Program-made: the position numbers and the translations under genes
Part shown: in pieces, positions 3,167-64,000 of the stretch
Position numbering within the stretch: the stretch's first letter is position 1
Layout: each line of letters starts with the position of its first letter
The notes under the pieces: generated by a model
Told to the model about the DNA's origin: nothing
The model's database searches: none
Seen by the model: only the letters and a program-made list of their open reading frames with translations
Assembly (NCBI RefSeq): GCF_029873635.1
Contig: NC_080428.1
Coordinates: forward strand, 63,297,957-63,361,956
DNA length: 64,000 nucleotides
Source: Malania oleifera
Taxonomy: Eukaryota > Streptophyta > Magnoliopsida > Santalales > Ximeniaceae
Reading direction: 5' to 3'

Positions 3167-3171
3167 AAACA

Positions 3172-5410: not shown

Positions 5411-8400
5411 TTCTCCCCTTTTTGGGGGAATGATGACAAACTATGACCATCAAAAATAGTCGGTTACCCAAGAAGGACTCCCCTGTCAGATGCATTCAGG
5501 GAAATTCAAATTTTAAACCGTAACACCAAGATTTTTGCCGGTCGTCATCTCCCCTGTTTGCAATAAGCAAAAGGAGCCACTAAAGTAAAAACTCTAGGCA
5601 TGGGTGTGTTGGTGATATTTTAATACATTATAAGTTTGGAAAGGTTTTTTCGAAAATTTCCATAGAGTGCCGGTTTTAATTGGAGCTTCCAAACGCATAC
5701 TAAAGTAAAACCCATAACCTCTTTGAGTTTAAATTTTCTAAACAATTTATCCACCACTACTCAAATAGTTTCAGTTGATCACTGCTTAGAATAAGGTTAA
5801 CAGTTAGTCATTCAAAATATAATAGAGCCATACTTATTCAGCAAAGAATGGACAAAAGATAAACCCTCACAATTAACACACAACAATATAACTGGGTATT
5901 AAAAGTTCAAATTGAACCATAACAAACTGAGTAGAACTAGAAATATACACAAACCAGTTGCAGTTGAAATATCTCATTAACTCGGTGGAAGATTGAGTTT
6001 AAAGACAACATGTCATAAGATGATACCAAAAAGAAGGTTGTAGCGTAATAAGTCTAACTAGTTCACTGTATTTTCATATATTATCATGAGACCAGTTATG
6101 GTAATGCCAACATCCACTTTAGAGATTTCTGACATGAAAAATTTAATGTAGAGAACGCACAAGTCATGAAGGCATTTTAAAGCACACAAGCAAGACTAAT
6201 ATATGCTATAGAGTTTAGTTTCTTGCTTTCATAATGGATATATATCAGATATATATAGATATACACTGTATATATAAATATATATCCCCCTTTGATATTG
6301 GCAAAGTACTAGGAGGGCGCTTGTTGAAAAAGAAAACTTTAAAATTTTTAAAAAACAAGCAAGCAACATGTTCTAGTTTGTCAATTAGTAACTAGAAAAC
6401 CACACAACCATAATGATCTTAAAATTAAAATTCCATGCAAGGATCATATGGCAATCGAAGTGTGTTGCAACAACAGCTATTTTCAATTTATGAAACAAGC
6501 ATTTCATTTAAACACATGCCACACTTGATTCAATAGCAGAATCTACGCTCACAGATTTGTTGAGCAAACAAGATTATGTTTAGATGGCTCCCCCTAGTAA
6601 ATTTGAGTTTCGTGCTTTAGATTCTCAACTACTTATACTAACCCAAGATTAGTTTCATTAGGCTCAATAGTATTAGCCATCAATTCACACTGTAAAATCA
6701 GCTATAGTGAGTATTTTGTCAATTACAATTATCACTTGATTAGTAGTTGTCCCTAGAGACTGAATCCTCAAAAGATATATTTTAAGGCATGCAATAATGT
6801 TTATGACCCACGAACATTTCATATCAAACATAGCCTTTAAGCACTAGATATAATGTTTTTGGGTATCTCAGAGCCTCGATATTTAGTACAGCAACGAAAG
6901 TGATGCCTATGGATCATTTATAGCTTTTCTAGAGGGATGGAGGTAACTCCCATAAGAATGTGATATTAGCAAGGATGAAAGTGTATATTCTATTTAAGTT
7001 TTCACATCCATCCTTTCAAAAACATTTTTATCTTTTTATTATCATACTCATCCTTGTGTATCAAAGTTCTACTTTTAAAAAAATCTAACCGAAATTTCGG
7101 CAAATTCCTGTTGTAAATTGAACGTTTCCCAAAAAAAAAAATGTACCTGAGAAGGGTTTTTTCAATAGATAAAACATATAAAGCAAGCACAACCTAATTA
7201 TCCACAACTAGTCATGCAAAAGCTATCACTGGCCTCTGCCATGCAGGAGGCTATGTATACGAAGCATGCATTCCAGTAGTATAATCAACACAAGATATTC
7301 AATATATCTCAATAAAATTCGTGCTAGGAAAGAGATAAACTATCCATCAAAGACATTTTAAAATCATGTATTACTCAGGATAGTGGCGGTAAGGGCCTAT
7401 AATAGCCCATTATCATAAGGAAGGCATAGTCTATATAAGATATGAGAGGCATTCAAAGTTATATATAGGAAGAATAAAAGCTCCCCCTGATTCTGTATTC
7501 TACTCATTTTATGTCAAATTTTCAATTTCTAATTTCTTTTTCCAAGATTATAAGATTTTCAATGGTTTAATCTGGCATGAAATGCTTTAGGCTTCTTGAT
7601 GACCAAATTCACACGTATATTCGTTTAGGTGTGATAAGCCTATGTCTGCCTCTTTTCTTACATATTTTCAAACGGTGAGAGAGGCACAAGTTCAAATGGC
7701 ATGCAATATAAAAAGGCCATGCAATAGGTCTACTGAAGTTTTAATGCTTCATCTGAGTGAGACCTAAGCAATCAATTGAGCCATTCAACTCATCTCTAGG
7801 TATATAAACGCCAGCTGATATGATTTAACTTTGAGAGCTAGTGAGATTAATTAAATACTCTTAACAATAAAATTATTATTGAGTTCCGAAGAGTATTTAT
7901 TATGAGTGGACATGATTCAAAATAATTTTCATGAAGTGGATAGTCCCAAACAGAATAGTAAATGAGCGACTCATAATATAGTAGTCGTTTAGGATTACTA
8001 GTGCTTTAAGCCTAGAGTATGAAGCCCCTGATTTTTTATTTAGGCTGTTTATATTCAAAAGTGAGTTTATGGTACAGTGACATATGATATACGAAATAGA
8101 TCCCTAACACCATTTTTTGCATGGACACAGTTTGCTTAACTTAGATATTCATAGTGTAAGTGTAGTCAAGCAATTTGAATTACTTACCTGGCAATAATGC
8201 TATATCCATTCGGAAGTGGATTCGTTCAATTATGCCACACCATGTTTCACCTTTTAAATCCACTCATCTGATATTTCACTGCATTAAGTTATTAGATTGG
8301 ATTTTTTTCATGATTTTTGTATTGGCTAAATTTTTTCAAGGAATTTTACTTACGCCTCACCTCCAACCCATCGTATCACTACCCCCTAAACCTGGAATAA

Positions 8401-8419
8401 GGAATAAGTAATAATTATG

Positions 8420-9700
8420 TAATTTTTATGGCATCCCGATTTTCCTTGACCCGATAGGGTTTGCTTCATGATTACCCACATCATTTCTTTTCAACCCCTC
8501 TGGCACTTCGGATGAGAAAATAAATCGGTTGTCCCTTTTCTTTAAAATGGTAAGCGGTTTTTATAATAACGTGAAAGGATATGCTTACAATTCTTATGGT
8601 TGCTTGTTAAGGCATATAGTGGGAATTATCTGGTAATCCTACATCCTTTTTTGAACGATTTTCCTTAATCTTAAGGATTTATTATGAGTATTCTTCTCAT
8701 TTATGACTTTGGTGTAGCTCTAGACTATAATTGATCTCTTTCCCTAAGCGTGGTTGGTCAAGATCTTCTACTTTTTCTTTTCAAGGATACATGATACTTT
8801 TTTAATTTTTCCTTATTGATTTTTTCCACCTATTACTCTCTTTTTTCAAAGGTTTCTTCTTAGACATCCCGACTAGAAAACTATGGCATTTTAATTATTC
8901 ATTTTCTAGTGCTATATTGAGTTTTATCCCCCCATGCTTTCATTGTAAGATTCAATCACATGATTCAGCATAAAATTTAATCACTATAACATTCATAGGA
9001 ATCATGCCCAAGTATTTCATAGAACCGAATGATGACTCTCAACCAATATATCACGGGATTTGGCATAACAAGAGTCATCACAACATGCATCACATGATAT
9101 TGCATAGCGAAGATCACATTATCAACTATGGCAATCGGATGATTCAGTGCATGATATATTCCATTGATCAACATTAGACTCATCAAGTGCATCAATAACC
9201 GACTTCACACGAATATTCAACAGATGATTTAGCATAAGATACAACACAACGTTTACATATGAAGCGTCAATTGAGCTAGAGTGAGATTCATATACCGTTC
9301 TTTTTTGTTATTGTAATCACCTAATCATTTACCACCCTGAACATCAGAACTTGCATACTACAGAAGTGGTGATCTCTTCCTTCTTCTGGGTTCTCCATAT
9401 TTCTTTTCGAGCTGTTCCAGATTTCCTAGCCTAGCACAAGCCATGATCTCTGAAAATATCAGTCTCTAAAGCATTGTACAATCAATTCCATGGTATATGA
9501 AAAAAAATTTGCATGCATAAAAATTAATATCATTTTTCTATTGGCAAAACAAATTCCCTTATCCAATCACCCGGCATGCTCCTCAATTCATAGATTTTAT
9601 AAAATACGCTCATTCTAATTTTTCAGGTGGTGTATCGACAGCCACAAAATCAAAGGCCTAGCAGGTGTCTGTCCCTCATCGAATGGGGATACACCAAATT
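8420..9700 (-). pseudogene. Broken gag of gag-only element, copy A
   Basis: Aligns with the gag region of copy B (20510-21800) but is cut into short pieces by frequent one-base insertions and deletions. No reading frame longer than about 70 codons survives in the gag direction. It provides no independent coding evidence; copy B should be used as the reference for this gene. Confidence 0.6.
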
Positions 9701-9758
9701 GAGCCACCTCGATCTTAAGCCAAAACGTTAAGGGTCATGCCTACAGACTCTATCCCAA

Positions 9759-12014
9759 TTTTAGCTTTTGGTGTTTCCCAAAGGGGTGGAAATTGGAAAT
9801 TTAAAATTTATTGCCTAGGTTAACTAATCTCCTAGCAGTAGTACATCCACAACCTAGGTTATGGCTATACAATTCAATGCGCAGATGATACAACGTGCAG
9901 AAATTAAATCATTCGCACATTCCACCGATCATAACATACATGTGCGGTAAATATAGAAGAGCATAAATATAACAAGGCCACAATATTTTATCAGTTCGGC
10001 CAACTGTGTCCTACATCCACACAAGTCCCGCCTCCTAGCTCGCAAGTCCATGGATTCTACTATGGCTCATTAACGGGTGGAGCTGCACCAATTACACCAG
10101 TCAATTAGCACAGAGCCTGACCTCAACCTTAACTAGGTCGATTAAGCGTGCTGCCTTAAGATTCAACCTATATGCCTTAACAGGATGCGCACCTAGCTTT
10201 TACCTAACCCGAGTCCTAAATCCAATCCGTACTATTCTAGGCTAGTCTCCCCTCTTTAGGCCCGTGCCTCGAAATCCACATATTTGAATACATGAAATGT
10301 ACCTGATTATGACGTTCATGTAAAGCAGATATGTACCCAGTTACGCGCAATATCACATACCCACCAATATAAATAATATTACAAGCTTAGTGGGTTTAAG
10401 ATGTTTACTCTCAATAGATTTCTATTATTGTAATGTAGTTGCGTGAAGTGTGAACACTATCAATCTTTGTATCACAGATGGTATTCAATCTAAGTGCTCA
10501 AACAAGATATTTACCGAACAAATAGATATGTATAGATTTATATATGTGAAGCTCTCAGCTTGTATAAGTTTGGTTTTGCGAAACGAATTTACCCTTTGTA
10601 TTCACCTAGAGATATGAATCAATGAATATTGCAACCAAGATTTTTTCCTCACACAAACAAATATCTCTTTAAAGTTATCAATATCAGCACAATAATAGTT
10701 GAAATATTTTGAAATAAATTTTTAGCAACCAAAAATCAGTTCAATCTCTCAGATGTTGCCAGGAAGGTCATCTTATAAGATCTCTATCAAAGTCTTCTTA
10801 GGATAGACTTATAAACAAAGTCCCCTACGAATCTTAAGGTTAGACTCTCAATAAAAATAAATCAATCAATCCAAAATATGAGAGGCAACTAATCAAGAAA
10901 CACTCAAAAACCACTTACAAATGATTTAGGCAAAATGGGAAGGTAAGATTGAGTGTGTGGGAGCGTGGAAATGAGTATTCTAGGGTTTGAATTTTCAAAG
11001 ATTTTTCCCTAATCAAATCTCTAATCTCACATGCTAATTGGCAACAAATGATCACATATTATAACATGGGACAATATATGACTGTAGGGACCTATTGGGT
11101 ATTATTATAAAATTTTACTGACCTTTCAATATTTTAACCCTGTTTAAAATTTAACTATACGGCTGTAAAAAATGAGGTGCGAACCCGAGAGGTCGGTCGC
11201 CGAGAGAGTTCGTCGACCAATCTCATATGGTTTCGGTCAACGAGAGGATCTTGAATCTAAATGGTCGGTCGACCAAAGTGCCTCTCTCTAAAGAACGGTT
11301 TTTCCTATTTTATACCGAGGTTCGGTCGCCCGGGCCCATTTTTGAAACTGCTGGTTCGGCGGGCTCGACTAGGACCGCTAGATTTTTCCAGACGGAACCC
11401 TCGGTCGACCAAGTAAGTTGGTGTACAATTTTTGCACGGTAGCCCCAAATGGTCAAAGTTGTTTACCAAGAGGGTTTCGGTCCGACCGGAGGTTTTAAAT
11501 TGCAATAGGTTTTCGGTCGACCATGACCTTAGTCAACAGTTGACCCAGGTCTGGTTCGGTCGACCCAGCCAAAATGAAACTGAGTTGGCCGTGTCGACCG
11601 AAGTGCACAATGTCTGCATTCAGTCCTTTTTCACACAACAACCATTCATCATATTCAATTCCTAATACATGTCAAGTGCAAAGTGAGATCCTAGGGTCAT
11701 TTATGTTCAAACTAGAGACACTGAAAGAATCCGGAGGGAAAGCCTAAGGTTTATTCCTACGTCACGTTTTGTTTGAGCTACATAATAAACCCTGCTATGA
11801 TGTTTGAGCTTATTACAACCACAGACCTATTTAACTATTACATACCATTACCACGAATATATCTTTACACACTGAAAACATGAACTGGTCTTCAAGCCTT
11901 AGCTTCATGTGCCGTAAATGTATCTGGCTAATATTGACCTGCACATGAACTCGATATTCATTAAATACATGAATATTGGTCATGGTCAATATCGGCATGA
12001 CCGATAAGTCAACA
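9759..12014 (-). repeat. Right (5') LTR of gag-only element, copy A
   Basis: Aligns with 21866-24116 with dense small indels. It ends GTCAACA at 12014 and is followed by the AAACA target duplication. The GGTCGACC-type palindrome array is still visible at 11190-11600 but many sites are altered. Confidence 0.75.
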
Positions 12015-15249: not shown

Positions 15250-17518
15250 TGTTAGCTTTGGTGTATTCCCAAGAGGGGGGGGGGGTGAATTGGAATTTAA
15301 AAATTTATTACCTAGGTTAAACTAATCTAGCAGTAGTACATTCACAACCTAGAGTCTGTCTATGCAGTTCCAAATGCGCAGATAGATACAACATATGGAA
15401 ATTAAAATCATGCACAACATTCACCGATCATAACATACATGTGCGGTAAATATAAAGAGCAGAAATATAAACAAGGAACACGATATGTTATCGGGGTTCG
15501 ACCAACTATGCCTACATCCCCGCCTCGAGCTCACAAGCCCAAGGATTCCACTAATGGCTTAATTAACGGGTGGAGCGGCACCGATTACAACCAGGTCAAT
15601 TAGCACAGGACTGACCTCAACCTTAACCAGGTCAATTAGCGGAGCTAACCTCAACCTACACACCTTAACAAGATGGCGCACCTAGCTTTCCTAACCGGGT
15701 CTAATCCAATACGGGACTATTCCAGGGCTAGTCTCCCTCTTCAGGCCCGTGCCTGGAAATACAACAGTATTTTAAATACAATGAAATGGTACAGTGATTA
15801 TGCTTTCATGTAAAGAATATATATACCCAGTTACGCGCAATATCACATACACTGCCAATATGAAATAATATGTAAGCTCAGTGTGGTTTAAGATGTCTAT
15901 TCTCAAATAGATTTACTATCGTTGTAATCAGTGTGTGAGAGTGCGAACACTACAATCTTTGTATCACAAGATGTATTCAATCTAAGTGCTCAAACAAAGA
16001 AATTTACCGAACAATATATATGTATATATTTATATATATGAAGCTTTAGCTATGTATAAGTTTGGTTTGCAAAAAGAGTTTAACCTTTGTATTCAACTAG
16101 AGATATGAATCAATGAATATTGGAACAAAGATTTTTCTCACACAAACAAATATCTCTTTAAAGGTTTATCAAGATAAAGCACACTAGATATTTGAAAGTA
16201 TTTTGAAAATATTTTGCATCCAAAAATAAATACAATCTTCTCAAGATGTTGCAATGAATTGCAATCTTAGAAGATCTGTCAAAGTCTTCTTAGGATAGAC
16301 TTATTAACAAAGTCCCCTAAGAATCCTTAAGGTTTAGCTCTCAATAAAAATAAATTAATCAATCCAAAGATAGGAGAGCAAACCAATCAAGACAAACACT
16401 CAAAACCAACTTACGAATGATGTAGGCAATATTGGAAGGTAAGATTGAGTGTGTGGAGCTTGGAAATGAGTATTATAGGGTTTTGGATTTTCATAGAATT
16501 TTCCCTAATCAAATCTTCTAATCTCATGCTAATTTGCACAAATGATCACATATATATAGACATGGGATAAGACATGACCGTTAGGGACCTATTGGGTATT
16601 ATTAGGAAAGTTTAATGACATTTCAAATATTTTGACCCTGTTTAAAAATATTAACTGCGGTAAAAATGAGGTGTAACCTGAGAGGTCCGGTTGACCAGAG
16701 AGGTTTCGGTCGACTAGATCTCATATGGTTTAGTCGACGAGGAGGATTTTGAACTAAATGGTTAGTCGACCGAAAGTGCCTTTCCAAAGGCGATTTTCCT
16801 ATTTTACCGAGGTTCAGTCAATCAGACCATTTTGAACTGGCTTGTTCAATAGACCAGACCGCTGGGATTTTTCCCAAGAACCCTCGGTCGACCAGGTAGT
16901 TGGTGTACAATTTTTGTACGGTCGACCAGATGGTTAAATTGTTGACTAAAAAGGGTTTCGGTCGACCGGGAGGTTTTGAACTGCATAGGTTTGGTCGACC
17001 AGGACCTTGGTCAATGGTTGACCTAGGTCTGGTTCGGTCGATCAGGCCAAAATGAATTGAGTTGGCCGGTCAACCGAAAGTGCACAATGTGTGCATTTTG
17101 GTCCTATTTCAACAACTATTCACCCTATTCAAGTTCCTAATACATGCGAATGCAAAGTTGAGTGTCCTAAGGTCATCTATGTTCAAAATAGAGACACCGA
17201 AAGAATCCGGTGTCAGTCGATCGAAGGGAAAGCCCTAAGGTTATTCTATGCTCACTTTTTGGTTTGACCTATTTACATAATAAACCATGCATATGATGTG
17301 TATGAGCTTATTACAAACTAAAGACCTATTTACTATTACAGACCAATTTTACCACTGAATATATATTACAACTGAAAAACATGAACTGGTCTTCAAACCT
17401 TAAGTTTTCACGTGCCATCAATGTATCTGCTAATATAGACCTGCACATGAACTGGATATTCATTAGATACATGAATATTTGTCATTGTCAAAACCGGGCG
17501 TGACCTATAAAGTCAACA
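15250..17518 (-). repeat. 3' LTR (left) of gag-only element, copy B
   Basis: 2,269 bp, TG...CA on both strands (TGTTAGC...GTCAACA). It contains a partly decayed GTCGAC palindrome array at 16680-17085 and a TATA-like 'catatatataga' at 16549-16560 downstream of it on the minus strand. It differs from the right LTR mainly by C/T and G/A changes. Confidence 0.9.
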
Positions 17519-17531
17519 TTCTCCCCTTTTT
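17519..17531 (-). other. Polypurine tract of gag-only element
   Basis: On the minus strand AAAAAGGGGAGAA directly precedes the 3' LTR start TGTTGAC. This is the expected plus-strand priming site. The corresponding run in copy A is at about 5411-5423. Confidence 0.85.
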
Positions 17532-20509
17532 GATGATGACAAATATGACCAGCAAAAATATAGGTTTAAGCCCAAGAAGGCTCCCCCTGTCAATATGCAT
17601 TAAGGGAAATCAAATTTTAACCCAATTTTTGCCTCTTCATCTCCCCTTTTTGGCAATAGCAAAAAGGGCCCTAAGAATTAAAAACTCTAGGCAATGGGTG
17701 TGTGTGATATTTATACATTATAAGTTTTGGAAAGTTTTTTAGAAAAATTTCAGTAGAGTGCCGTTTGTAAATTGGACTTTCCAAACGGCATCCTATATAA
17801 ACATAACCTCTTTGAGTTTAAATTTTCTAACAATTTATCCACAACTACTCAAATAGTTCAGTTTGATCAATGCATAGAATAGAGGTATAACTTTCAGTCA
17901 TTCAAAAATATAATAGTCATACTTATGCACAAAGAATGACAAAGATAACCTCAACAATTAAGCACACAAACAATATAACTGGTTATTAAAAGGTTCAAAT
18001 GACATAACAAACATGAGTAGACCAAAAATATACACAAACCATTTGCAGTTGAAATATATCATAAGACTCGTGGAAGATTTGAGTTAAAGACACATGGCAT
18101 ATGATACCAAAAAGAAGGTTTGAGCATAAATATAGTCTAACTAGTTCACATGTATTTTCATATATTATCAATGAACCAGTTATGTAATGCAACACCCTTA
18201 AGAGATTTCATGACATAAAATTTTAATGTAAAGAAAGCACAAGTCATGAAGGCATTTAAGCACACAAGCAAGACATAAAATATATTCTATATGAGTTTAG
18301 TTCTTGCTTTCATAAATGGATATATATAAGTATATATATAGATATACACATGTATATAATAAATATATATCCCCCTTTGATATTTGCAAAAGGTACTAGG
18401 AGGGTCGCTTGTTGAAAAAGAAAACTTTAATTTTAAAACAAGCAAGCAACATTTTTCTAGTTTGTCAATTATAACTAGAAAAACCACAACCATAATGATC
18501 TTAAAAATTTAAAATTCACATGCAAGATCATATGGCAAATCAAGTAGCTGTGGCAACAACAGCATATTTCAAATTTATGAAACAAGCATTTCATTTAAAC
18601 ACATGCCACACTTGATTCAATAGCAGATCTAAGCTACACATATTTGTGAGCAAAACAAGATTATGTTTAGATGCTCCCCCTATAAATTTGAGTTCGTGCT
18701 TAGATTCTTCAACTACTTATACTAACCAAAGATTAGTTTCATTATGCTCAATAGTATTAGCCATCAATTCACATCTTTAAAATCAACTATATTGAGTATT
18801 TGTCAATTACAAATTATCACTTGATTAGTATAGTTGTCCCTATAGACCATGAATGCATCAAAAGATATATTTTAAGGCATGCAATAATGTTTATGACCCA
18901 AGAACATTTCATATCAAAACATAAGCCTTTAAGCACTAGATATAATGTTTTGGGTATTCTCAAGAGCCTCGATATTTAGTACACGAAAGTGATGCATATG
19001 GATCATTTATGAGCTTTCTATAGGGATGGAGCTGAACTCCCATAAGAATGTGATGATTATGCAAGGATGAAAGTGTGATATTTCTATTTAAGTTTTCACT
19101 CATCCTTTCAAAAACATTTTATCATTTTTATTATCATAATCATCTTTGTACAAAGTTTTACTTTTAAAAAAAATCTACCGAAATTTCGGCAGAATTCTGT
19201 TTGTAAATTGAACGTTTTCCCAAAAAAAAAAACTTGTACCTGATAATGGGTTGTTTTCAATAGATAAAACATATAAAGCAAGCAACAACCTAATATCCAC
19301 AACTAGCATGCAAAATATATCACTGCATCTGCCATGCAGGAGGCATTGTAGACTAAGCATGCATTCCAGTAGTATAATCAACACAAGATATTCAATATAG
19401 CTCAATAGAAATTCGTGCTAGGAGAAGAGATAAACTATCCATCAAAGACATTTTAATCATTTATTAACTCATGGATAGTGCGGTAATGCTATACACATAT
19501 ATGCATAAAGGCATAAGCGATATAAGAATATGAGAGCATTCAAATTTATATATATGAAGAATAAAAGCTCCCCCTGAGTTCTGTATTCTACTCATTTTAT
19601 GTCATTTTCAATTTCTAATTTCTTTTTCCAAGATTTATAAGATTTTCAATGGTTTAATCTTGGCATGAATGCTTTAGGCTTATTTGACCAAAAATTCACA
19701 ACGTATATTCGTTTAGGTGTGATAAGCCTATGTCTGCCTCTTTTCTTATAATATTTCAAAATGTGAGAGAGGCACAAGTTCAAATGGCATGCAATATAAA
19801 AATGCACATGCATAGGTCTACTTGAATTTTATGCATTCATCTAGATTGAGACCTAAGCAATCAATTTAGCCATTCAACTCATCTCTAGGTATATAAAGCT
19901 CCAGCTGATATGATTTAAAGTTTGAGAGCTAGTGAAGATTATTTAAATACTCTTAACAATAAAATTATTATTGAGTTCAGAAGAGTATTTATTATGAGTG
20001 GACATGATTCAAAATAATTTCATGGAAGTGGATATGTCCAAACAGAATAGTAAATGAGCACTCAATATATAGTAGTCGTTTATGATTAATAGTGCTTTAA
20101 GCCTAGAGTGATGACCTGATTTTTATTTAGGCTTTTTATATTCAAAAGTGAGTTTAGGGTACAGTGACATATGATATAAGATAGATCCCTAACACTCAAT
20201 TTTGTGCAATGGACAACAGTTGCTTAACTTTAGATATTCATATTTAAGTGTGAGTCAAGCAATTTGAATTACTTACCAGGCAAATAATGCTTTATCCATT
20301 CGGAAGTGGATTTCGTTCAATTATGCCACAACCAATGTTTTCACATTTTATCCAATCATCATGATATTTCTTCATTAAGTGATTAGATTGGATATTTTTC
20401 ATGATTTTTGTATTGGCTAAATTTTCAAGGAATTTTAATTACGCATCACTTCCCAACCCTATCGTCATCACTACCCCCTAAACCTAGGAACTAAGGAAGA
20501 ATTAAATAA
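17532..20509 (-). other. Non-coding interior of gag-only element
   Basis: About 3 kb between gag and the PPT. The longest readings are under 90 codons, lack family motifs and are not preserved in copy A. It contains AT microsatellite-like stretches (18315-18370) and A/T homopolymers. No trace of protease, integrase core, RT (YxDD) or RNase H was found in six frames. Confidence 0.65.
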
Positions 20510-21800
20510 TTATGTAATTTTTATTGGAATCCGATTTTCCTTAGACCCTATAGGGTTTGCTTTCATGATTACCCACATCATTTCTTTTTCAACCCCTCTG
20601 GCACTTCTGGATGAGAAAATAAATCGGTTGTGCCCTTTTCTTTTAAAATGTAAGCAGGTTTTATAAATACGTGAAAGGATATGCTTACAATTCTTATGGT
20701 TGCTTGTTAAGGCATGATAGTGGGAATTATCTGATAATCCTAAATCCTTTTTGAAAAGAATTTTCCTTTTAATCTCTAAGGATTTATTATGATTATTCTT
20801 CTCATTTATGACTTTGAGTGTAGCTCTAGAATAATAATTTATCTCTTCCTCTAAGCAGATGATTTTCAAGATCTTCTTAACCTTTTTCTTTTCAAGGATG
20901 ACATGATACTTTTTTAATTTTCCTAATTGATTTTCCAACCTATTACTCTCATTTTTCAAAAAGGTTTTCTTCTTAGACATCCCGACTAGAATCTTATGCA
21001 TTTTAAATGATTCATTTTCTAGTGCTATATGTGAGGTCATGCTTTCATTGTAAGATTCAATACATGATTCATCATAAAATTTATCACTATAACATTCATA
21101 TGAATCAATGCACACAGTATTATCATTAGAACCAATAGATGACTCATCATACAATATATCACGGGATTTGGCACAAGAGTCATCACAACATGCATCACAT
21201 GGAATATTGCATGAGCGAATAGCACAATTATCACTAGGGCAATCGGATGATTCATTGCATGATATATTCCAGTGATCAACATGAGAATCATCAAGTGCAT
21301 CAATAACAGAACTATCACAATATTCAACAGATGATTTAGCATAAGATACAACACAACATTTGACATATGAATCATCAATTGAGCTAGAGTGAGATTCATA
21401 TACCTTCTTTTTTGTTATTGTAATCACCTAATCATTTACCACATCTGGAACATCAGAACTTGATACTACAGAAGTGGTGATCTCTTCCTTCTTCTGGGTC
21501 TCTCCATATTTCTTTTCGAGCTGTTCCCAGATTTCCCTAGCACTAGCACAAGCCATGATCTCATGAAAAATATCAGTCTCTAAAGCATTGTATAATAAAT
21601 CCATGGTATATGAATTTGCATGCATAAAATTAATATCATTTTCTATTGGCATACAAATTCCCTTATCAATCACCTGCCAGGCTCTCCAATTCATAGATTT
21701 TATAAATACGCTCATTCTAATTTTTCAGGTGGTGTAATCGACACCACAAAATACAAGAGGCCTAGAAGGTGACTGTCCCTCATCGAATGGGGATACACCA
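20510..21800 (-). pseudogene. Copia-type gag with two in-frame stops
   Basis: The best-preserved gag of the gag-only element. Read from about 21800 down, it gives a leader with an FDEGQSPSRP segment, then the Copia gag N-domain: WKIRMSVFIKSMNWRAW-like (the first W is a TGA stop at about 21725), DKGICMPIEND, YNALETDIFHEIM and AREIWEQLEKKYGE (21715-21510). A TAG stop at 21428-21430 interrupts the same frame. The next 305 codons (21427-20510) include a Ser/Asp/Cys-rich spacer, a Lys/Glu-rich coiled-coil-like section and a degenerate zinc knuckle (CLHFKRKGHNRF, missing two of the CCHC cysteines) before the family-typical tail ending near PIKIT. Frame retention across about 400 codons is notable for an element without pol. 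Confidence 0.75.
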
Positions 21801-21850
21801 AATTGAGCCACCTCGATCTTTTAGCAAAAACGTTTAAGTCAATGCTACGA

Positions 21851-21863
21851 GACTCTGATACCA
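21851..21863 (-). other. Primer-binding site, tRNA-iMet type
   Basis: On the minus strand TGGTATCAGAGTC begins two bases after the 5' LTR end (...GCTAACA-AT). TGGTATCAGAG is the standard initiator-Met complementary PBS of plant Copia and many Gypsy elements. Confidence 0.9.
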
Positions 21864-21865
21864 AT

Positions 21866-24116
21866 TGTTAGCTTTGGTGTATTCCCAAAAGGGGGGGTGA
21901 ATTGGAATTTAAAAATTTATTGCCTAGGTTAAACTAATCTAGCAGTAGTACATTCACAACCTAGGTTATGTCTATACAATTCCAAATGCGCAGATAGATA
22001 CAACGTGCAGAAATTAAAATCATGCGCAACATTCACCGATCATAACATACATGTGCGGTAAATATAAAGAGCAGAAATATAAACAAGGCACACAATATGT
22101 TATCAAGGTTCGGCCAACTGTGCCTACATCCCCGCCTCTAGCTCGCAAGTCCAAGGATTCTACTAATGGCTCACTTAACGGGTGGAGCGGCACCAATTAC
22201 AACCAGGTCAATTAGCACAGAGCTGACCTCAACCTTAACTAGGTCAATTAGCGGTGCTGACCTCAACCTATATGCCTTAACAGGATGGCGCACCTAGCTT
22301 TCCTAACCGGGTCTAATCCAATCCGGGACTATTCTAGGGCTAGTCTCCCTCTTTAGGCCCGTGCCTCGAAATACAACAGTATTTTAAATACAATGAAATG
22401 GTACAGTGATTATACTTTCATGTAAAGCAGATATGTACCCAGTTACGCGCAATATCACATACACCACCAATATGAAATAATATGTAAGCTTAGTGTGGTT
22501 TAAGATGTTTACTCTCAAATAGATTTACTATTATTGTAATTAGTGCGTGAGAGTGTGAACACTACAATCTTTGTATCACAAGATGTATTCAATCTAAGTG
22601 CTCAAACAAAGATATTTACCGAACAATATATATGTATATATTTATATATATGAAGCTCTAGCTATGTATAAGTTTGGTTTGCAAAAAGAATTTAACCTTT
22701 GTATTCAACTAGAGATATGAATCAATGAATATTGCAACAAAGATTTTTCTCACACAAACAAATATCTCTTTAAAGGTTTATCAAGATAAAGCACACTAGA
22801 TATTTGAAAGTATTTTGAAAATATTTTGCAACCAAAAATAAGTACAATCTTCTCAAGATGTTGCAAGGAAGGTGCAATCTTAGAAGATCTATCAAAGTCT
22901 TCTTAGGATAGACTTATAAACAAAGTCCCCTAAGAATGCTTAAGGTTTAGCTCTCAATAAAAATAAATCAATCAATCCAAAGATATGAGAGCAAACTAAT
23001 CAAGAAAAACACTCAAAACCAACTTACAAATGATGTAGGCAAAATGGGAAGGTAAGATTGAGTGTGTGGAGCTTGGAAATGAGTATTATAGGGTTTTGAA
23101 TTTTCAAAGAATTTTCCCTAATCAAATCTTCTAATCTCATGCTAATTTGCACAAATGATCACATATTTATAGACATGGGACAAGATATGACTGTTAGGGA
23201 CCTATTGGGTATTATTAGGAAAGTTTAATGACATTTCAAATATTTTAACCCTGTTTAAAAATATTAACTGCTGTAAAAAATGAGGTGCGACCCGAGAGGT
23301 CCGGTCGACGAGAGAGGTTTCGGTCGACCAGATCTCATATGGTTCGGTCAACGAGGAGGATTTTGAACTAAATGGTCGGTCGACCAAAAGTGCCTCTCTA
23401 AAGACGATTTTCCTATTTTACCGAGGTTCGGTCGACCGGGCCATTTTGAACTGGCTGGTTCGGTCGACTAGACCGCTGAGATTTTTTCCCGAGGACCCTC
23501 GGTCGACCAAGTAGTTGGTGTACAATTTTTGCACGGTAGACCAAATGGTCAAATTTTTTACCAGAGAGGGTTTCGGTCGACCGGGAGGTTTTAAATTGCA
23601 TAGGTTCGGTCGACCAGGACCTTAGTCAACAGTTGACCCAGGTCTGGTTCGGTCGACCAAGCCAAAATGAACTGAGTTGGCCGGTCGACCGAAAGTGCAC
23701 AATGTATGCATTTCAGTCCTTTTTCAACAACCATTCATCATATTCAAGTTCCTAATACATGCAAGTGCAAAGGTGAGGATCCTAGGGTCATTTATGTTCA
23801 AAATAGAGACACTGAAAGAATCCGGAGGGAAAGCCCTAAGGTTATTCTACGGTCACTTTTTGGTTTGAGCTTACATAATAAACCATGCATATGATGTGTG
23901 TGAGCTTATTACAAACCAAAGACCTATTTACTATTACAGACCAATTTTACCACTGAATATATATTACAACTGAAAAACATGAACTGGTCTTCAAGCCTTA
24001 AGCTTTCATGTGCCATAAATGTATCTGCTAATATTGACCTGCACATGAACTAGATATTCATTAAATACATGAATATTTGTCATTGTCAAAATCGGGCATG
24101 ACCTATAAGGTCAACA
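21866..24116 (-). repeat. 5' LTR (right) of gag-only element, copy B
   Basis: 2,251 bp, TG...CA. A TATA box (TATAAATA on minus, 23164-23171) lies about 135 bp downstream of a 12-site GGTCGACC palindrome array at 23300-23692, so the array sits in the U3 promoter region. The left boundary is fixed by the PBS, the right by the AAACA duplication. Confidence 0.9.
23300..23692. promoter_or_regulatory. 12-site GGTCGACC palindrome array in Copia-like LTR
   Basis: Twelve near-palindromic sites with core GGTCGACC or one-base variants, centred near 23306, 23325, 23349, 23381, 23433, 23465, 23504, 23538, 23578, 23611, 23654 and 23686. Spacings are 19-24-32-52-32-39-34-40-33-43-32 bp. The array lies upstream of the LTR TATA box on the minus strand. 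Corresponding arrays are at 16680-17085, 11190-11600 and 4555-4955, more decayed. A regulatory role is inference. Confidence 0.6.
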
Positions 24117-25435: not shown

Positions 25436-25509
<74 letters not shown>

Positions 25510-38092: not shown

Positions 38093-38174
38093 AAGAGTTT
38101 TGCATCACTTTCTTTTTGAATACTTTTACATTATAAAATTAATTTAAATTATTAGTTCCTACTTTATTTCTCAT

Positions 38175-38214
<40 letters not shown>

Positions 38215-38530: not shown

Positions 38531-39194
38531 ATTTCATGTTGTTAATAGATTTAAACTTCTGGGTATTTTTTGAAAGTTTTCAAAAAGACAAAAGGTGGAG
38601 TGTCGTATTTGAAAAACTTGGAAGATATTGTTAGATTTAACCTAAATATTAAAAGGACAAGTTAAAAAAGACAAAGGTGGAGTGTCGTGTTTGAAAAACT
38701 CAAAGGATATTGTCGGATTTTACCCAAATATTAAAAGGGTAAGAAAAAGTTGTCAAGAGTTGGGAAAATGACCTTATGAATGACATGACATAAAACATCA
38801 AAAAGCCAAATTTGTGAGTTTAAGTTTTGGATAGAAATTTGATAGATGGATGGTGTTTTCAATTTTAATGCTCCCTTCATAACTAATTAATTTATGATTG
38901 TGATTGCTTAGGGAGTTTGATAAAAACAAACGGTTAATTATTAATTAGAAGCAAATATTAGAATTTAGGTAAGTAATATACCCCAAAAACAGTGTTGGTC
39001 TGCACAATCTTCAAGTTTTACAACATGGAATTAATATGATTGTAGAGGGTATTACATCGTACATTAATTAAAATGAATGAATATATATACACACACACCA
39101 AGGTATTAAATAATGAACGAAATAAATTAATTAAATGGGATTGAAGGAAAAAAAATAAAAAATAAAAAATAAAAAGTGACTGGATCCTCTTCAA

Positions 39195-39794
39195 TTAAGG
39201 CATGCTGGAGGTGCACTCTGGAGGGAGACCTTGTGGGAAGCGCTTCGTGTCCGTGCAATAATTGTAAATCATGTAGTTTTGCTGAACCCATTTTAGTCTT
39301 TCTCGACTTGTAGAATCCAATTCCTGAGTGAGCCACGAATTCGCTGTACCAGAGGTTGAAGAAGATGGATGTGAACTACATGAAGATGCTCCGGATGACC
39401 ACACACAAGCATCAGCATTGTAATTCCTGTAGGAGGCGGTGAAGGGTGCTTGGGTCCAGTCTGCCTTCACCAGCCCACCTCTTGTGGCCCAATCATCCGC
39501 ATTCCAAAGACTGGAGTATATTCTCATCGGCTGATTTTTAGGAAAGGGAACACCCATTGATTCCATGTTCTTGAATTCCCTAATAGGCGTGCCATCCACA
39601 GAGAAGCTGAAACAGAGACACGGTCAAGATGTTAAAAACATAAATTTAGATCGAACTGGGTTCCCTGGAACTGTATATATAATTAATTTTGTCACTTTAG
39701 TTGGGAGTACATATACTTACATTATGGCTTGAGGATTCCAGAGGATGGAATAGGTGTGAAAGTCAGCAGTGGGATCAAACCACAAATAGAATAT
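39195..39794 (-). pseudogene. 5'-truncated XTH gene copy
   Basis: Exon 3 (39606-39195) is fully open and differs from the intact gene by only two residues (Pro to His in the Ser-rich stretch, Gln to Arg near LKWVQQ). Intron 2 keeps its GT and AG. About 73 bp of exon 2 (39721 to about 39794) survive, coding [14 protein letters not shown]; the catalytic DEIDFEFLG block, exon 1 and promoter are absent. The break joins directly to a decayed Tat/Athila gag. It cannot make an active XTH. High identity points to a young duplication. Confidence 0.9.
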
Positions 39795-51574: not shown

Positions 51575-51704
51575 GATAAACGATGAAGGAATCTAGAGAG
51601 AGAGAGTGAATCCCGAGTTTCTAGAGAGAGAGAGAGAGAAACCATTACTTCACTACTAAGCAACTCAAAATATCCTTTTAAAGTGCCTTTGACCCGGGTG
51701 GATT

Positions 51705-51890
51705 CATCGACGAATTGGCGTCCTCGTCGACGAGTCCGCCATTGGCTTTGTCAACGAGACGGTAGCCTCGTCGACGAGCCAGATATTTCTAATTTCCCTG
51801 AACCTCTCGGCATTCCCTTGTCGACGAGCCTCTGAATTTCATCGACGAGAAGGACGAAGACTTCGTCAACGAAATCTGACTTCGTCGACG
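51705..51890. promoter_or_regulatory. Eight-site GTCGAC array, minus Gypsy 5' LTR
   Basis: Site centres near 51708, 51728, 51752, 51772, 51822, 51843, 51867 and 51886 (spacing 20-24-20-50-21-24-19). Cores are TCGTCGACGA or one- to two-base variants. On the minus strand a TTTAAAAGG TATA-like box follows about 25 bp after the last site. Confidence 0.65.
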
Positions 51891-51964
51891 AGACCTGCTC
51901 TTTTACCAAAATGCCCCTCTCTTTAAATATTTAAAAGCCACTTATCACAGTTTGGGTTCTTACA

Positions 51965-55383: not shown

Positions 55384-55454
55384 TGTAAGAACCCGACTCT
55401 TGATAATGGTTTTAAATATTTAAAGAGAGGGGAATTTTGGTAAAAGAGTAGGTC

Positions 55455-55643
55455 TCGTCGACAAAGCCATATTTCATCGACGAAGTCTTTGTCCTTCTCG
55501 TCGACGAAATTCAGAGACTCATCAACGAGGAGAAGCTGAGGAGTTTTGGAAACCGGGAATATCAAAATTCATCGACAAATTCCTTATCTCATTGATGAGA
55601 AAACTATAGGGCCTCGTCGACGAAGGCACCATTTCGTCGACGA
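55455..55643. promoter_or_regulatory. Eight-site GTCGAC array, plus Gypsy 5' LTR
   Basis: Centres near 55459, 55478, 55502, 55523, 55573, 55593, 55618 and 55638 (spacing 19-24-21-50-20-25-20). The last site is about 26 bp before the TATA box. Some sites are decayed (ATCAACGA, ATTGATGA) but still on the same grid. Confidence 0.65.
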
Positions 55644-55664
55644 GTTTGCCCAGGTCAAAGGGCC

Positions 55665-55673
55665 TATAAATAG
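55665..55673 (+). promoter_or_regulatory. LTR TATA box
   Basis: TATAAATAG directly downstream of the palindrome array; predicted start near 55697. The same box is at 62557-62565 in the 3' LTR. Confidence 0.7.
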
Positions 55674-55703
55674 AATATTCTTTACTTCTCAACTAAGAAA
55701 ACT

Positions 55704-55749
<46 letters not shown>

Positions 55750-57250
55750 GAACTCTCCCTACTCTCTATCTCTCTAGATTTCTTCACTGATCTTCATTGG
55801 AATCGTGAATCTGAAGTTACCACAAGGATTGTGGAAGGATTCTCTACAAGTTCTACGGATTGGAATCCCGTTTCGGAGATTTTCGGGTTTTGGCGTAAAC
55901 TCGAGGTAAGGCTCGATTTTCAATTCTGATTCGATAGTTTTATGGTAAATTGTCTTGTGAGCATATTCTTTACTGTTGATTGTAGGTTTTGGAACTCGGT
56001 TCGCTGTTTAGGGGCCTTGGAGTTCAAGATTTGCTGTTTTGGGAAAAGGTAAGGGGAACTGTGTTTATATTGGTTATTTTTGAAATTAGACTCGGTGAAA
56101 CTGTGGTTCACGGTCTTGTATGTGTTTTGGCTACTCATTTGGGGGGATCTAACGGGGAAAACTATGGGTTTTTCATTATTACAATTTTGGGAAAAAAGGA
56201 GCGACGGCCTGCATCCATGGTTTTGTTGAAAACCGAGGGTATATGTTGATTTGTACTGTGTTATTCGGATGACCGTGCCTTGACTTGTTTAAATTGTATT
56301 TTTTTGGAAAACCATGATTTAAATTACCAAATGGGTGTGATTTGTTTGGTTATATGAGCATGCATGTGTGTGTGATATGTTGAAATGCTAGTAAGAACGC
56401 GGTTGCAAAATTGTTCCAAGTACTGAGAGTGTCTGGCTCTATATCCGAGGGCGTGTGTTTTATCGCCTACCGCCTAGGCAAGAGTTCTTGGCTCTATATC
56501 CGAGGGCATGAGCCTATTCCGGCAAATCAGGTCGAAGGGTGTTGATCCACCAGTTAGTGTTGGTACGATGCCATGGGAGTCGGAGACTAGCTATGTGCCG
56601 GTGGCACCATGTTCGTGGGTTGGCTACTAGCCAACGCTGTATGTTGCAGGCCGGCTTCAAATCGAAGGGTGTGATGACACCAGGATTGTTGATAATGTGT
56701 ATGCGTATGTGTGCGCGTATGCACTATGTAAACTAGTACTGGAGTGCATTTAACTGCGTGTATGTTGCATCATGCTAACACTCAAATGCCACACAATGAT
56801 ATAACTTGTGTTCTTCCTTACTGAGAGGTGTCTCACCCCTACTATACGTACATTTTTACAAGTCCTTCGAGTAACCGGAACTAGCGTCCTGGTGTAGGGA
56901 GTGTAGTGGCCGGTGTACTATAGTTAACGCTTGGGTAAGTGCTAGGACTATATTTTGGTGGGTTGCCATTTTGAGATGTATTTGGGAACCCATTTGTACG
57001 TTTTTGATAAAGTTGTGTTCTACTCTTGTATAGACTTTGGTATGGTACTATATATATATATATATATAGAATGACTTTTTCCACTGCGTATATTTAGTTG
57101 TGTTTGGATGTGTATAGGGTGCCTGGGAACCCCATGGGGTTGGACCCTCATCCTTTATAATGTATCTTTGGATGTTTTATCGGATACAAGGAGAGGTTAG
57201 ATTACATTTTCACCCCCAGATCCTAATTCCGGGTTCGAGGCGTGACATCT

Positions 57251-59099: not shown

Positions 59100-60420
59100 T
59101 TGAGACTCAAGGACATTCGGGTAATCAGCGAGTTCCTGGATGTGTTTCCATATGATTTACCTGGTTTACCACCGGATCGTGAGGTAGAGTTTGCGATAGA
59201 GTTGTTATCTGGTAAGGCACAGATCTCTAAAGCTCCATACCAGATGGCTTCAGCGAAACTTCAAGAGTTGAAGCAACAGTTACAAGAATTACTGGACCAG
59301 GGATTCATTCAACCTAGTGTTTCACCCTGGGAAGCTCCAGTATTGTTTGTAAAAAAGAAGGACGGGTCGATGCTAATGTACATTGATTATCGTGAGATTA
59401 ACAAGGTAACTGTGAAGAATTGCTATCCTTTACCTCGTATAGATTATCTCTTTGACCAGTTGTAAGGAACGCGGGTCTTTTCGAAGGTCGACTTGCGGTC
59501 AGGATATCATCAAGTTAGGGTTAAAGCAGAGGATGTAGCGAAGACTACTTTTCCGAACCTGATATAGCCACTATGAGTTCTTGTTCATGCCGTTTGGGTT
59601 GACAAATGCTCCGACAGTGTTCATGGATCTGATGCACAAGGTTTTCCATGAGTACCTGGATCAGTTCGTAATGGTATTCATTAACGACATTCTAGTTTAC
59701 TCGAGGAGTACGGAAGAGCATGTGGAACATTTGAAGTTAGTATTACAGATTCTGTGGGAGAAGTTGTATGCTAAACTGAAGAAGTGTGAATTCTGGTTGA
59801 GTTGGATTGCGTTTTTAGGCCATGTGGTTACTAGGGATGGCATATCAGTTGATCTTAGCAAGATTGAAGCTGTGGTCGACTGGGTAAGGGTGAAGAATGT
59901 GCAGAAGGTTCAGAGTTTTCTAGGACTGGCGGGTTACCATCATCGGTTCGTAGATGGTTTCTCTAAACTGTCTAGACCTCTGACACGAATGACCAGAAAT
60001 GGAGTACAGTTTGAGTGGACCAGTGATTGTGAGCAGTGCTTTTAGGAGTTGAAGCATCGGTTGGTTGCTGCTTTAGTGTTGACCATTCCTTCGGGGGATG
60101 GTGGGTTTTTGATTTATAGCGATGCGCCTTTGAAAGGCCTGGGATGTGTGCTCATGCAGCAGGGTAAGGTGATAGCTTATGCTTCTCGGCAATTGAAGGA
60201 ATATGAGAAGAACTACCCTACGCACAATTTGGAATTGGTTTCTGTGGTGTATGCACTGAAGATCTGGCAACACTATTTGTATGGTTTGCAGTGTGAGGTT
60301 TTCACTAATCATAAGAGCCTTAGGTACTTCTTCACGTAGAAGGAGTTGAATATGAGGCAAAGGCGGTGGCTAGAGTTGATTAAGGACTATGATTGCATGA
60401 TCAGTTATCACTCGGGGGGC
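59100..60420 (+). pseudogene. Gypsy reverse transcriptase-RNase H, plus element
   Basis: RT reads [42 protein letters not shown] and [15 protein letters not shown], then a TAA at 59463. It resumes [24 protein letters not shown] and the active-site segment [12 protein letters not shown] (59660-59700), in which the first conserved Asp of the DD pair is Asn. RNase H follows: [52 protein letters not shown] then [21 protein letters not shown]. Stops at 59463, 60043 and 60338 are TAA, TAG and TAG at positions where the sister copy has Gln codons. Inactive. Confidence 0.92.
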
Positions 60421-60424
60421 TAAT

Positions 60425-61996
60425 GTGGTGGCTGATGCGTTGAGTCGGAAGTCAGGACCTACGGCTATATCTGCAATTGTAACTCAGTGTCACATCAGAT
60501 TGGATTTGGAGAGCTCAGGTATAGAGTTGGTAGTTGGTGATCATCAGGCTTATCTTGCTGGTTTGGTGGTCCAACCGACCTTATTGGAGCATATAAAAGC
60601 TACGCAGGCTAGTGATGCAGAGTTGGCAGAGGTTATGGAAAAAATACGGCAGGGACTGGCTACAGAGTTTAACATCTCTGAGGGAGGTGTGTTGAGGTTT
60701 GGGACCAAGTTGTGTGTTCCGAATGATGCTGAGATCAGAAGGACGATTCTAAAGGAGGCGCGTCATTGTTTGTATACAGTACATCCTGGTAGTACAAAGA
60801 TGTATCGGGACCTACGCGAGACCTTTTGGTGGTCTGGTATGAAGAGGCAGATTGCTCAGTTTGTAGAGCAGTGTCTGACGTATCAGCAGGTGAAAGCTGA
60901 ATATCAGAGGCTAGCAGGGCCATTGCAGCCTTTGCCTATTCTGGTGTGGAAATGGGAGCATATTTCCATGGATTTTGTAACCGAATTGCTGCCAACACTT
61001 CACGGGAAGAATGCTATCTGGATGATTATGGATAGATTGACGAAATCCGCTCATTTCATACAGATGAAAGTTGGCTATCCTTTAAGTAGGCTGGTAGAGT
61101 TGCATGTGCATAAGATTGTGAGAATGCACGGGGTGTCGATGTCTATTGTGTCAAATCGAGATCCGAGGTTTACTTCTCGATTCTGGACGAGTTTACAGGA
61201 GGCACTGGGGACGAAGCTTACTTTCAGTACAGCGTTCCACCCTCAGACTGATGGACAGTTGGAGAGGATGATATAGATTTTGGAAGATATATCACAAGCT
61301 TGTGTGTTGGACTTCGGTGGTAGCTGGATACAGTTTATGCCACTTGTAGAGTTTACTTATAATAACAGCTTCTAGTCTAGTATCTAGATGGCATCGTTCG
61401 AGGCTTTGTATGGTCAGACGTGTCGATCTCCTTTGTGTTGGGAGGAGGTTGGTGAACGTCAGGTGTTAGGACCTAAACTCGTGCAGCAGGTGTCTGAGAA
61501 GGTGGGTTTGATCTTGAAGAGGATTAGATCAGCTCAGATTCGGCAAAAGAGTTATGCAGATTTTCTCCGCTGTAAGTTAGAGTTCGAAGTGGGAGGTAAG
61601 GTATTTCTACATATTGCTCCGATGAAAAGGGTGATGAGATTTGGCAGGAAGGGCAAGTTGAGCTCGAGGTATATCGGACCATTCGAGGTACTTGAGCGAG
61701 TGGATTTGGTAGCCTACAGAGTTGCACTACCTCCAGCACTCTCGAGGGTCCACGATGTGTTTCACATATCCATGTTGAGGAGGTAGGTTTTGGATCCTTC
61801 ACATGTTATCAGTTATGATGAGTTGGAAATTAGGGATATTTTAGCGTATGAGGAGATACCTGTTCAGGTTCTAAACCGTAAAGTTCAGAAGCTTTGTACC
61901 AAAGAGATGCCGTTAGTGAAGGTATTATGGCGAAACCACGAGGTTGAGGAAGCTTCTTGGGAACTGGAAACGGAAATACGCTGGAAGTATCCCTAG
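60425..61996 (+). pseudogene. Gypsy integrase with chromodomain-like C-terminus, plus element
   Basis: The longest open piece (283 codons, 60425-61276). [10 protein letters not shown] linker, the zinc region with ARHCLYTVHPGS and CLTYQQVKAEY (second Cys of CxxC is Tyr), then the catalytic core with Asp in ISMDFVTELLP, Asp in SNRDPRFTSRFW and Glu in DGQLERMI. Stops at 61274, 61375, 61387 and 61784 follow. The C-terminal domain reads GRKGKLSSRYIGPFEVLERVDLVAYR (61638-61715). The final PLVKVLWRNHEVEEASWELE (61908-61970) is chromodomain-like, marking this as a chromovirus of the Tekay/Del type. Confidence 0.92.
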
Positions 61997-62275: not shown

Positions 62276-63541
62276 TGTAAGAACTCGACTCTTGATAATG
62301 GTTTTAAATATTTAAAAAGAGGGGCATTTTGGTAAAAGAGTAGGACTCGTCAAGGAAGCCAAATTTTGTTGACAAAGTCTTTGTCCTTCTCGTCGACGAA
62401 ATTCAGAGACTCATCGACGAGGAAAAGCTGAGGAGTTTTGAAAACCGAGAATATTAGAATTCATCGACGAATTCCTCATCTCATCGACGAGAAGGCTATA
62501 GGGCCTCGTCGACAAAGGCACCATTTCGTCGACGAGTTTGCCCGGGTCAAAGGGCCTATAAATAGAATATTCTTTACTTCTCAACTAAGAAAAGGTAAGG
62601 GGAACTATGTTTATATTGGTTATTTTTGAAATCGGACTCGGTGAAATTGTGGTTCACGGTCCTTTGTGTATTTTGGCTACTCATTTAGGGAGATCTAACA
62701 GGGAAAACTATAAGTTTTTCATTATTACAGTTTTGGGAAAAAGGGAGCAACAGGCTGCATCCCTGGTTTTGTTGAAAATCGAGGGTATATGTTGATTTAT
62801 ACTGTGTTATTGGGATGACCATGCCTTGACTTGTTTAAACTGTATTTGTTTGGAAAACCATGATTTAGATTACCAAATGGGTGTGGTTTGTTTGGTTATA
62901 TGAGCATGCATATGTGTTTGATATGTTGAAATGCTAGTAGGAACGCGGTTCCGAAATTGTTCCAGGTATTGAGAGTGTCTAGCTCTATATCCGAGGGTGT
63001 TTGTTTTATCGCCTACCGTGTAGGCAAGAGTGTCCGGTTTTATATCCGAGGGAGTGAGCCTATTCCAGCAGATCAAGCCGAAGGGTGTGGATCCACCAGT
63101 TAGCGCCGGTACGATGCTATAGGAGTTGGAGACTGGCCATGTGCCGGTGGCGCTCTGTTTGCGAGTTGGCTATGGGCCAATACCGTATGTCACAGGCTGG
63201 CTTTGAGCCGAAGGGTGTGACGACACCAGGATTGTTGATCATGTGTATGTGTATGTGTGTGCGTATGCACTGTGTAAACTAGTACTGGACTGCATTTAAC
63301 TGCGTGTATGTTACATCATGATAACACTCAAATGCCACACATGGATATAGCATGTGTTCTTCCTTATTGAGAGGTGTCTTACCCCTACTGTACGTACATT
63401 TTTATGGGTCCTTTGAGTAACCGGAACTAGCGTCCTAGTGTAGGGAGCGTAGTGGCCGGTGTACTGCGGTTAGCACTTAGGTAAGTGCTAGGACTGTATT
63501 TTGGTGGGTTGCCATTTTGAGATGTATTTGAGCACGCATTT
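62276..63541 (+). repeat. 3' LTR of plus Gypsy element, internally deleted and 3'-truncated
   Basis: Matches the 5' LTR but lacks the part equivalent to about 55687-56046 (CT run and leader). The junction 'aagaaaaggtaagg' sits at a shared GAAAA. The last part (after 'gatgtatttgagcac') is replaced by another LTR at 63542. The GTCGAC array is intact at 62348-62535 with the same spacing as the 5' LTR. Confidence 0.9.
62348..62535. promoter_or_regulatory. Eight-site GTCGAC array, plus Gypsy 3' LTR
   Basis: Centres near 62351, 62370, 62394, 62415, 62465, 62485, 62510 and 62530. TATAAATA follows at 62557. Confidence 0.65.
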
Positions 63542-63869
63542 TGTGATAACTCGAATAAAAATGGAATTTAAATAATAAAGAGGAAAGGAAATTACCATAA
63601 GACTCATCGACGAACACAGGTGATTCGTCAACGAGGGTATAAGCGAATTTGTTGATGAAGACAGGATTCGTCGACGAGGAAATATTGAGAGAGGTTTTGA
63701 GCCAACTTAATTTTGTCGACGAGGACTAAATTTCGTCAAAGAAATTATTAAAGGATTCGTCGAAGAATGACGTGGTTTGTCGACGAATCCTCTGTTCTAT
63801 AAATATCAAAATCTGAATTTTTAACTTCACCATTAAGCAAGCTCTCTCCTATCTCTCTCTCTTCCCTTA

Positions 63870-63932
<63 letters not shown>

Positions 63933-64000
63933 ATTTTGGGCCAGATTTACGCCGGATCGACAATCCAAAGTCACCACGACACTCCTGGGGAAGTTCTCTC
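63542..64000 (+). repeat. Start of a third Gypsy LTR, related family
   Basis: TGTGATAACTCG at 63542 begins a different LTR inside the preceding one. It has its own eight-site array (centres 63608, 63629, 63653, 63672, 63717, 63737, 63761, 63781), TATAAATA at 63798-63805 and a (CT)n run at 63868-63927. It runs off the window. Confidence 0.75.
63868..63927. repeat. (CT)n microsatellite
   Basis: About 60 bp of CT repeat, downstream of the LTR TATA box, at the same place as the CT run at 55711. Confidence 0.95.

Follow-up and report, generated by a model that had tools for sequence, protein, structure and literature searches.

The window, that is, the whole stretch of 64,000 bp analysed here, is plant DNA rich in LTR retrotransposons (Table 1). 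We identified a plus-strand Ty3/Gypsy element, named the 55384 element after the start of its 5' LTR, whose pol remains carry a Gypsy-type reverse transcriptase (RT) followed by an H2C2 integrase and a Tf2-type SH3 domain and which thus does not belong to the Sirevirus lineage of Ty1/Copia. The chromodomain of this pol is a weak match (Chromo, E 0.011; 16.1 bits, with the cut-off at 25.1), and the element probably belongs to the same broad lineage as the Del (Tekay) chromoviruses. Relatives of its integrase number 7380 proteins; among the matches listed (at least 120), they are spread over the angiosperms, one example being Vitis vinifera with 67% identity over 73% of the query. In addition, 15 loci with 31-36% identity to the integrase were found in prokaryote genome contigs, and none in viral contigs.

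The LTR at 63542 is a separate, divergent LTR that begins within the 3' LTR of the 55384 element (the 62276 LTR). A CT-rich stretch of about 340 bp in the 5' LTR (55702-56042) is missing from the 3' LTR of the same element (versus 62589). Elsewhere in the window, a Copia-type RT (RVT_2) lies within 30952-39792 on the minus strand, between the related repeats 30952-32493 and 38089-39792, which are probably LTRs, and a 255-bp tandem duplication with 95.7% identity occupies 26977-27481.

Table 1. Retrotransposon features and palindrome arrays of the window
Feature	Position	Strand	Remarks
Segmental copy of Sirevirus-like element	3171..12014	-	LTRs about 3171-5403 and 9758-12014; same arrays, more decayed
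Sirevirus-like element	15250..24116	-	LTRs 15250-17518 and 21866-24116
TATAAATA of Sirevirus-like LTR	23164..23171	-	
13-site GGTCGACC-like array in LTR 21866-24116	23303..23690	-	ends 131 bp upstream of TATAAATA
Eight-site array, minus-strand Gypsy element	51704..51891	-	TATA box degenerate
Minus-strand Gypsy element, relative of 55384 element	LTR start near 51965	-	
5' LTR (TG...CA) of plus-strand Gypsy element	55384..57247	+	
Eight-site array, 5' LTR	55455..55643	+	core starts 55455, 55474, 55498, 55519, 55569, 55589, 55614, 55634
TATAAATA of 5' LTR	55665..55672	+	21 bp past last core
tRNA-Met type PBS TGGTATCAGAGC of plus-strand Gypsy element	begins 3 bases past 5' LTR 55384..57247		
Gypsy pol remains, stop-broken	59100..61993	+	RT, integrase zinc-binding, Tf2-type SH3, weak chromodomain match
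3' LTR of plus-strand Gypsy element	62276..63541	+	interrupted at 63542
Eight-site array, 3' LTR of 55384 element	62347..62535	+	spacing as in 5' LTR
Divergent LTR, start only	63542..64000	+	runs off window
Eight-site array, divergent LTR	63604..63786	+	TATAAATA 11 bp past last core

Each of the four Gypsy LTRs carries eight sites with the core TCGTCGACGA, spaced at about 20-24-20 / 45-50 / 20-24-20 bp. A previous sequence-only reading had reported these four arrays, and we found all of them within 4 bp of the places it gave; recomputing its centre-to-centre spacings returned exactly the same counts, namely 19-24-21-50-20-25-20 in the 55384 and 62276 LTRs, 19-24-21-50-20-24-20 in the minus element (in its own direction) and 21-24-19-45-20-24-20 in the 63542 LTR. 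Its statement that the arrays precede a TATA box, TATAAATA, holds for three LTRs (gaps of 21, 21 and 11 bp) and not for the minus LTR, which has TTTAAAAGG instead. Compared with the 10-base core, each of the 32 grid positions agrees in 7 to 10 bases. Core matches of at least 8/10 occur at 50 positions in the window, 33 of them inside the four arrays (including 4 off-register overlaps), against an expectation of 7.7 from 20 first-order simulated windows. A scan for 8-base palindromes, with one mismatch allowed and A/T-only and two-letter palindromes excluded, returned six places with at least six copies in 300 bp, all of them GTCGAC-cored: three in Gypsy arrays (51705, 62391 and 63605) and three in LTRs of a second, Sirevirus-like family. 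Two simulated windows reached 4. The 55455 array and an array at 11.2 kb fell below this threshold, and no cluster was listed at the Copia-type element of 30952-39792.

The extended consensus of the Gypsy sites is YTCGTCGACGAR, in which an intact site contains three CpGs. T1, T4, A7 and A10 are invariant in 32/32 sites, and the bases flanking the core are Y and R in all 32; picking sites by resemblance favours such high counts, yet in an alignment of the four LTRs the sites occupy identical columns.

We also found an array that the sequence-only reading had not described. It consists of 13 GGTCGACC-like sites upstream of TATAAATA in a Copia element that appears to be Sirevirus-like, judging from a copia-type gag fragment at 21431-21724 (Retrotran_gag_2, E 4.3e-8, 98 residues), a primer junction and a poly-C run. 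The Sirevirus 5' LTR junction, CA-ATTGG + TATCAGAGC, is represented at the 21866 junction by ...AACA ATTGG TATCAGAGT, with 8/9 PBS bases (by eye), and the poly-C signal by seven consecutive C about 25 bases short of the LTR end (by eye). No pol-like ORF was recognised among the 13 ORFs listed. A 12-kb tandem segment duplication (1341-13361 and 13387-25447, 89.6% identity) contains this element, and its four LTRs, all with GGTCGACC-like sites, therefore derive from one ancestral element. The sample thus comprises four Gypsy LTRs, two of them belonging to a single element, plus an ancestral Sirevirus-like element; in both families all arrays sit upstream of the TATA position. In the best Sirevirus-like copy (D), whose array has a CpG observed/expected ratio of 1.21, GGTCGACC is exact in 8/13 sites, the right half-site CCG is present in 12/13, and the left half-site reads CGG in 3/13 and TGG in 6/13. 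The full decamer CGGTCGACCG, published as the RM box of Vitis Sireviruses (PMC2829016), occurs in 3/13 sites of this copy and is likely to represent the parent form of the second family's sites.

The layout of the Gypsy arrays is kept better than their bases, as the sequence-only reading had suspected. Between the 55384 and 63542 LTRs, the core T/A columns are identical in 32/32 cases and spacer A/T positions in 21/52 (Fisher p 2.8e-9); over all spacer columns, 41/101 are identical and 10 are gapped. When the four-site blocks of the 55384, minus and 63542 LTRs were compared with each other (the near-identical 62276 LTR being omitted from the pair table), only the first blocks of the 55384 and minus LTRs had similar spacers (24/28). 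Spacer identity was at chance in the other 14/15 block pairs (p 0.12-0.90), and no pair was significant when block spacers were compared as reverse complement. The middle gaps of the 55384 and minus LTRs are weakly alike (17/38, p 0.027), and this gap shortens from 50 bp to 45 bp in the 63542 LTR. Nevertheless, the five block types with sequence-unrelated spacers all have intervals of 19-21, 24-25 and 19-21 bp, so that intervals within blocks vary by at most 2 bp and their order is preserved (permutation p 0.00095). Four blastn alignments of the 55384/minus element pair contain 75 gap openings per 909 mismatches, and unrelated spacers would therefore be expected to drift in length. So little interval variance is unlikely under drift, with a probability of 0.028 for an SD of 1 bp and 0/20000 for an SD of at least 2 bp.

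A simple tandem duplication of a unit of about 22 bp with conserved flanks, which had been named as the outcome that would overturn the idea of a kept layout, is ruled out by these unrelated spacers. Spacers in mirror positions are non-complementary in 4/4 Gypsy arrays (p 0.13-0.87), which also rules out one inverted duplication as the origin of the array. The spacers of the second four-site block are unrelated between 51704-51891 and 55455-55643, though the surrounding LTR stretches are about 86% alike, and this suggests that whole four-site blocks may have been exchanged on the same fixed grid.

Helical phase was assessed in four arrays (minus, 55384, 63542 and one Sirevirus-like array with 13 sites) against control spacings with a jitter of up to 6 bp. 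The best period was 10.5 bp in three of these arrays and 10.8 bp in one. Based on this test, the proposal of the sequence-only reading that one DNA face is used stands for the minus Gypsy array (R 0.73, p 0.0045 at 10.5 bp; p 0.022 over 10.2-10.8 bp) and for the Sirevirus-like array (R 0.73, p 0.0001 at 10.5 bp; p 0.0008 over 10.2-10.8 bp), and is marginal for the 55384 array (R 0.66, p 0.017 at 10.5 bp; p 0.059 over 10.2-10.8 bp). The 63542 array conforms only at 10.8 bp (R 0.84; p 0.0022 over 10.2-10.8 bp) and is not significant at 10.5 bp (R 0.36, p 0.32). Under a uniform spacing null the Gypsy arrays gave p 0.0036 (minus), 0.0091 (55384) and 0.27 (63542), values of which the first two are not independent, since these arrays have block 1 in common; the 62276 spacings equal those of 55384. 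When the Sirevirus-like, minus and 63542 arrays were tested jointly at 10.5 bp, p was 5e-5. With the Sirevirus-like sites chosen in three other ways, p at 10.5 bp was 0.0001, 0.0003 and 0.011; with the eight perfect sites alone, a period of 8.2 bp (R 0.71) outscores 10.5 bp (0.66).

The observations to be explained are the sites, their grid, a largely common phase, CpG-type decay and the position before the TATA box. In the reading that we prefer, and to which we give slightly better than even chances, the array serves as an enhancer to which a dimeric DNA-binding protein of the host binds, with its dimers in common helical phase upstream of the TATA box. The eight two-fold symmetric sites YTCGTCGACGAR would dock a homodimeric, host-encoded protein, and the array would activate the LTR promoter from upstream. 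With sites near whole helical turns apart, the dimers would form two groups of four along a single side of the DNA and could act jointly on the TATA box just downstream. Cytosine methylation at the three CpGs of each site could turn the array off, and copies silenced in this way would then decay through deamination at the site CpGs. Against this reading stand the non-significant phase of the 63542 array at 10.5 bp, the marginal value of the 55384 array over 10.2-10.8 bp, the higher score of 8.2 bp with the eight perfect Sirevirus-like sites, the altered middle gap of 63542 and the small number of elements. CpG-dominated decay was also not seen in the Sirevirus-like arrays, where CpG transitions account for 13/57 substitutions, plus one gap, in the cores of four copies and CpG makes up two of eight core positions.

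An alternative is that the array acts as RNA: in transcripts through U3, site 1 would pair with site 8, site 2 with site 7 and likewise inwards, giving a long, imperfectly paired hairpin as a source for small-RNA silencing. A role of this kind has been proposed for the palindromes of maize Sireviruses. Those palindromes, CACCGGAC...GTCCGGTG, have been described as small-RNA hotspots (PMC5311732 and PMC10760457, on Bousios et al. 2016). They resemble the Gypsy array in forming clusters in the LTR cis-region within variable surroundings, and differ from it in belonging to Copia elements, in their motif and in being argued via RNA structure and small RNAs (PMC5311732, PMC10760457). Small-RNA matches on palindromes could, however, be a consequence of silencing rather than the purpose of the sites. 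For both strands of the four Gypsy arrays, folding z-scores ranged from -2.7 to -6.5. Two of the sense strands form nested pairs of mirror sites (1:8, 2:7, 3:6 and 4:5 in 63542; 1:8, 2:7 and 3:6 in 62276), but self-complementary sites fold whatever their order. When sites were kept and spacers shuffled, the real spacers were in the best 5% in 4/10 strand tests (62276 antisense, 63542 sense and both Sirevirus-like strands), and when sites were kept and spacing jittered, the real spacing was in the best 5% in 2/10 (62276 antisense and 63542 sense); the remaining 6/10 spacer and 8/10 spacing tests showed nothing at the 5% level. The Sirevirus-like control kept a 10-base word, and the palindromes there are longer, which may explain the spacer result in that family. 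With controls this mixed, and with mirror spacers that do not complement each other, we do not prefer the RNA hairpin and regard it as unlikely.

Somewhat less probable still is a reading in which a host silencing or chromatin factor recognises the sites, binds along one DNA face and brings in methylation. The 32 Gypsy sites show 34 departures from the core, of which 31 are CpG transitions, as fits heavy methylation, and 3 are other changes of C at position 8. CpG observed/expected ratios are 1.53, 1.54, 1.60 and 1.97 in the four Gypsy arrays versus 0.64 in the window. However, CpG positions make up six of the ten in the Gypsy core, and CpG decay also results from the ordinary silencing of any copy. 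Moreover, a target that survives so much sequence turnover should benefit the element, whereas one that only does harm should disappear. A functionless passive tandem repeat or slippage product is highly improbable. Short repeated words are common in LTRs, which would favour it, but here the spacers are at chance in 14/15 block pairs, no repeated unit extends beyond the palindrome and the non-CpG core positions hardly vary.

To return to the enhancer array, we tentatively extend it to both families, as a possibility that we rate clearly below the array reading itself: one host factor for GTCGAC-centred palindromes may be exploited by unrelated superfamilies (Gypsy and Copia) in the same plant, each with a helically phased array, so that the grid would be a promoter code under selection that lasts longer than the sequence around it. 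Leads for such a factor would presumably include DREB/CBF, IDD, WRKY and LBD. Earlier discussion has treated palindrome arrays in plant LTRs as promoter elements, as CpG islands or as triggers of small RNAs. A grid that stays rigid and largely in phase while spacers turn over offers a testable sign that a protein binds, and the core that the Gypsy and Copia elements of one genome have in common points to a shared host factor, which could be isolated.

The closest known system is the Sirevirus LTR, in which palindromic 'RM boxes' lie upstream of the TATA box (Bousios et al. 2010, PMC2829016). These number at least 8 in most listed elements, occupy the upper LTR half, are CpG-rich and end a short distance before the TATA box, and 12/13 listed RMs have a CGG-CCG signature; their authors found no common factor for them (PMC2829016). 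The accessible part of PMC2829016 holds no report of fixed spacing or helical phase. As described there, RM boxes resemble the Gypsy array in having many copies of one palindrome clustered before the TATA box (lost in one of our LTRs), and the Vitis RM CGGTCGACCG has GTCGAC in common with it (PMC2829016). On the other hand, the Gypsy sites TCGTCGACGA/YTCGTCGACGAR are without the CGG-CCG signature, and their host element is Ty3/Gypsy, whereas that of RM boxes is Ty1/Copia. The Gypsy array would thus work like an RM-box array yet lacks two defining features, the CGG-CCG signature and the Sirevirus/Copia lineage.

A second comparison is with the Del (Tekay) Gypsy chromoviruses, whose LTRs have 5' CpG islands (Cruz et al. 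2014, PMC4029996). These islands were reported from monocot groups and as absent from eudicot groups; like the Gypsy array, they are CpG-rich, lie in the 5' portion of the LTR and have fast-changing surroundings, but they are variable in length (PMC4029996), whereas the layout here is rigid. G+C content is 41-45% in three of the four Gypsy arrays, below the 50% that is the usual cut-off for a CpG island, and 54% in the fourth. The strings 'palindrom' and 'TCGA' have 0 occurrences in the main text of PMC4029996. Within the literature searched, mostly at listing level and with thin coverage of subscription journals, no Gypsy element with such an array came to light. What therefore looks new within that literature is a Ty3/Gypsy element whose RM-box-like architecture lacks the CGG-CCG signature and sits on a rigid, largely phased grid.

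Finally, the array reading frames (two queries) were used as bait for mispredicted plant proteins, and none were found. A scan of viral contigs for look-alikes of the array gave 74 stretches; among the 30 richest, two (L007 and L065) were read and the other 28 were judged by G+C alone. In these two viral-collection contigs, L007:1811-1900 and L065:6329-6410 have a stretch in common that contains four TCGTCGACGA-like sites about 20-30 bp apart (by eye).
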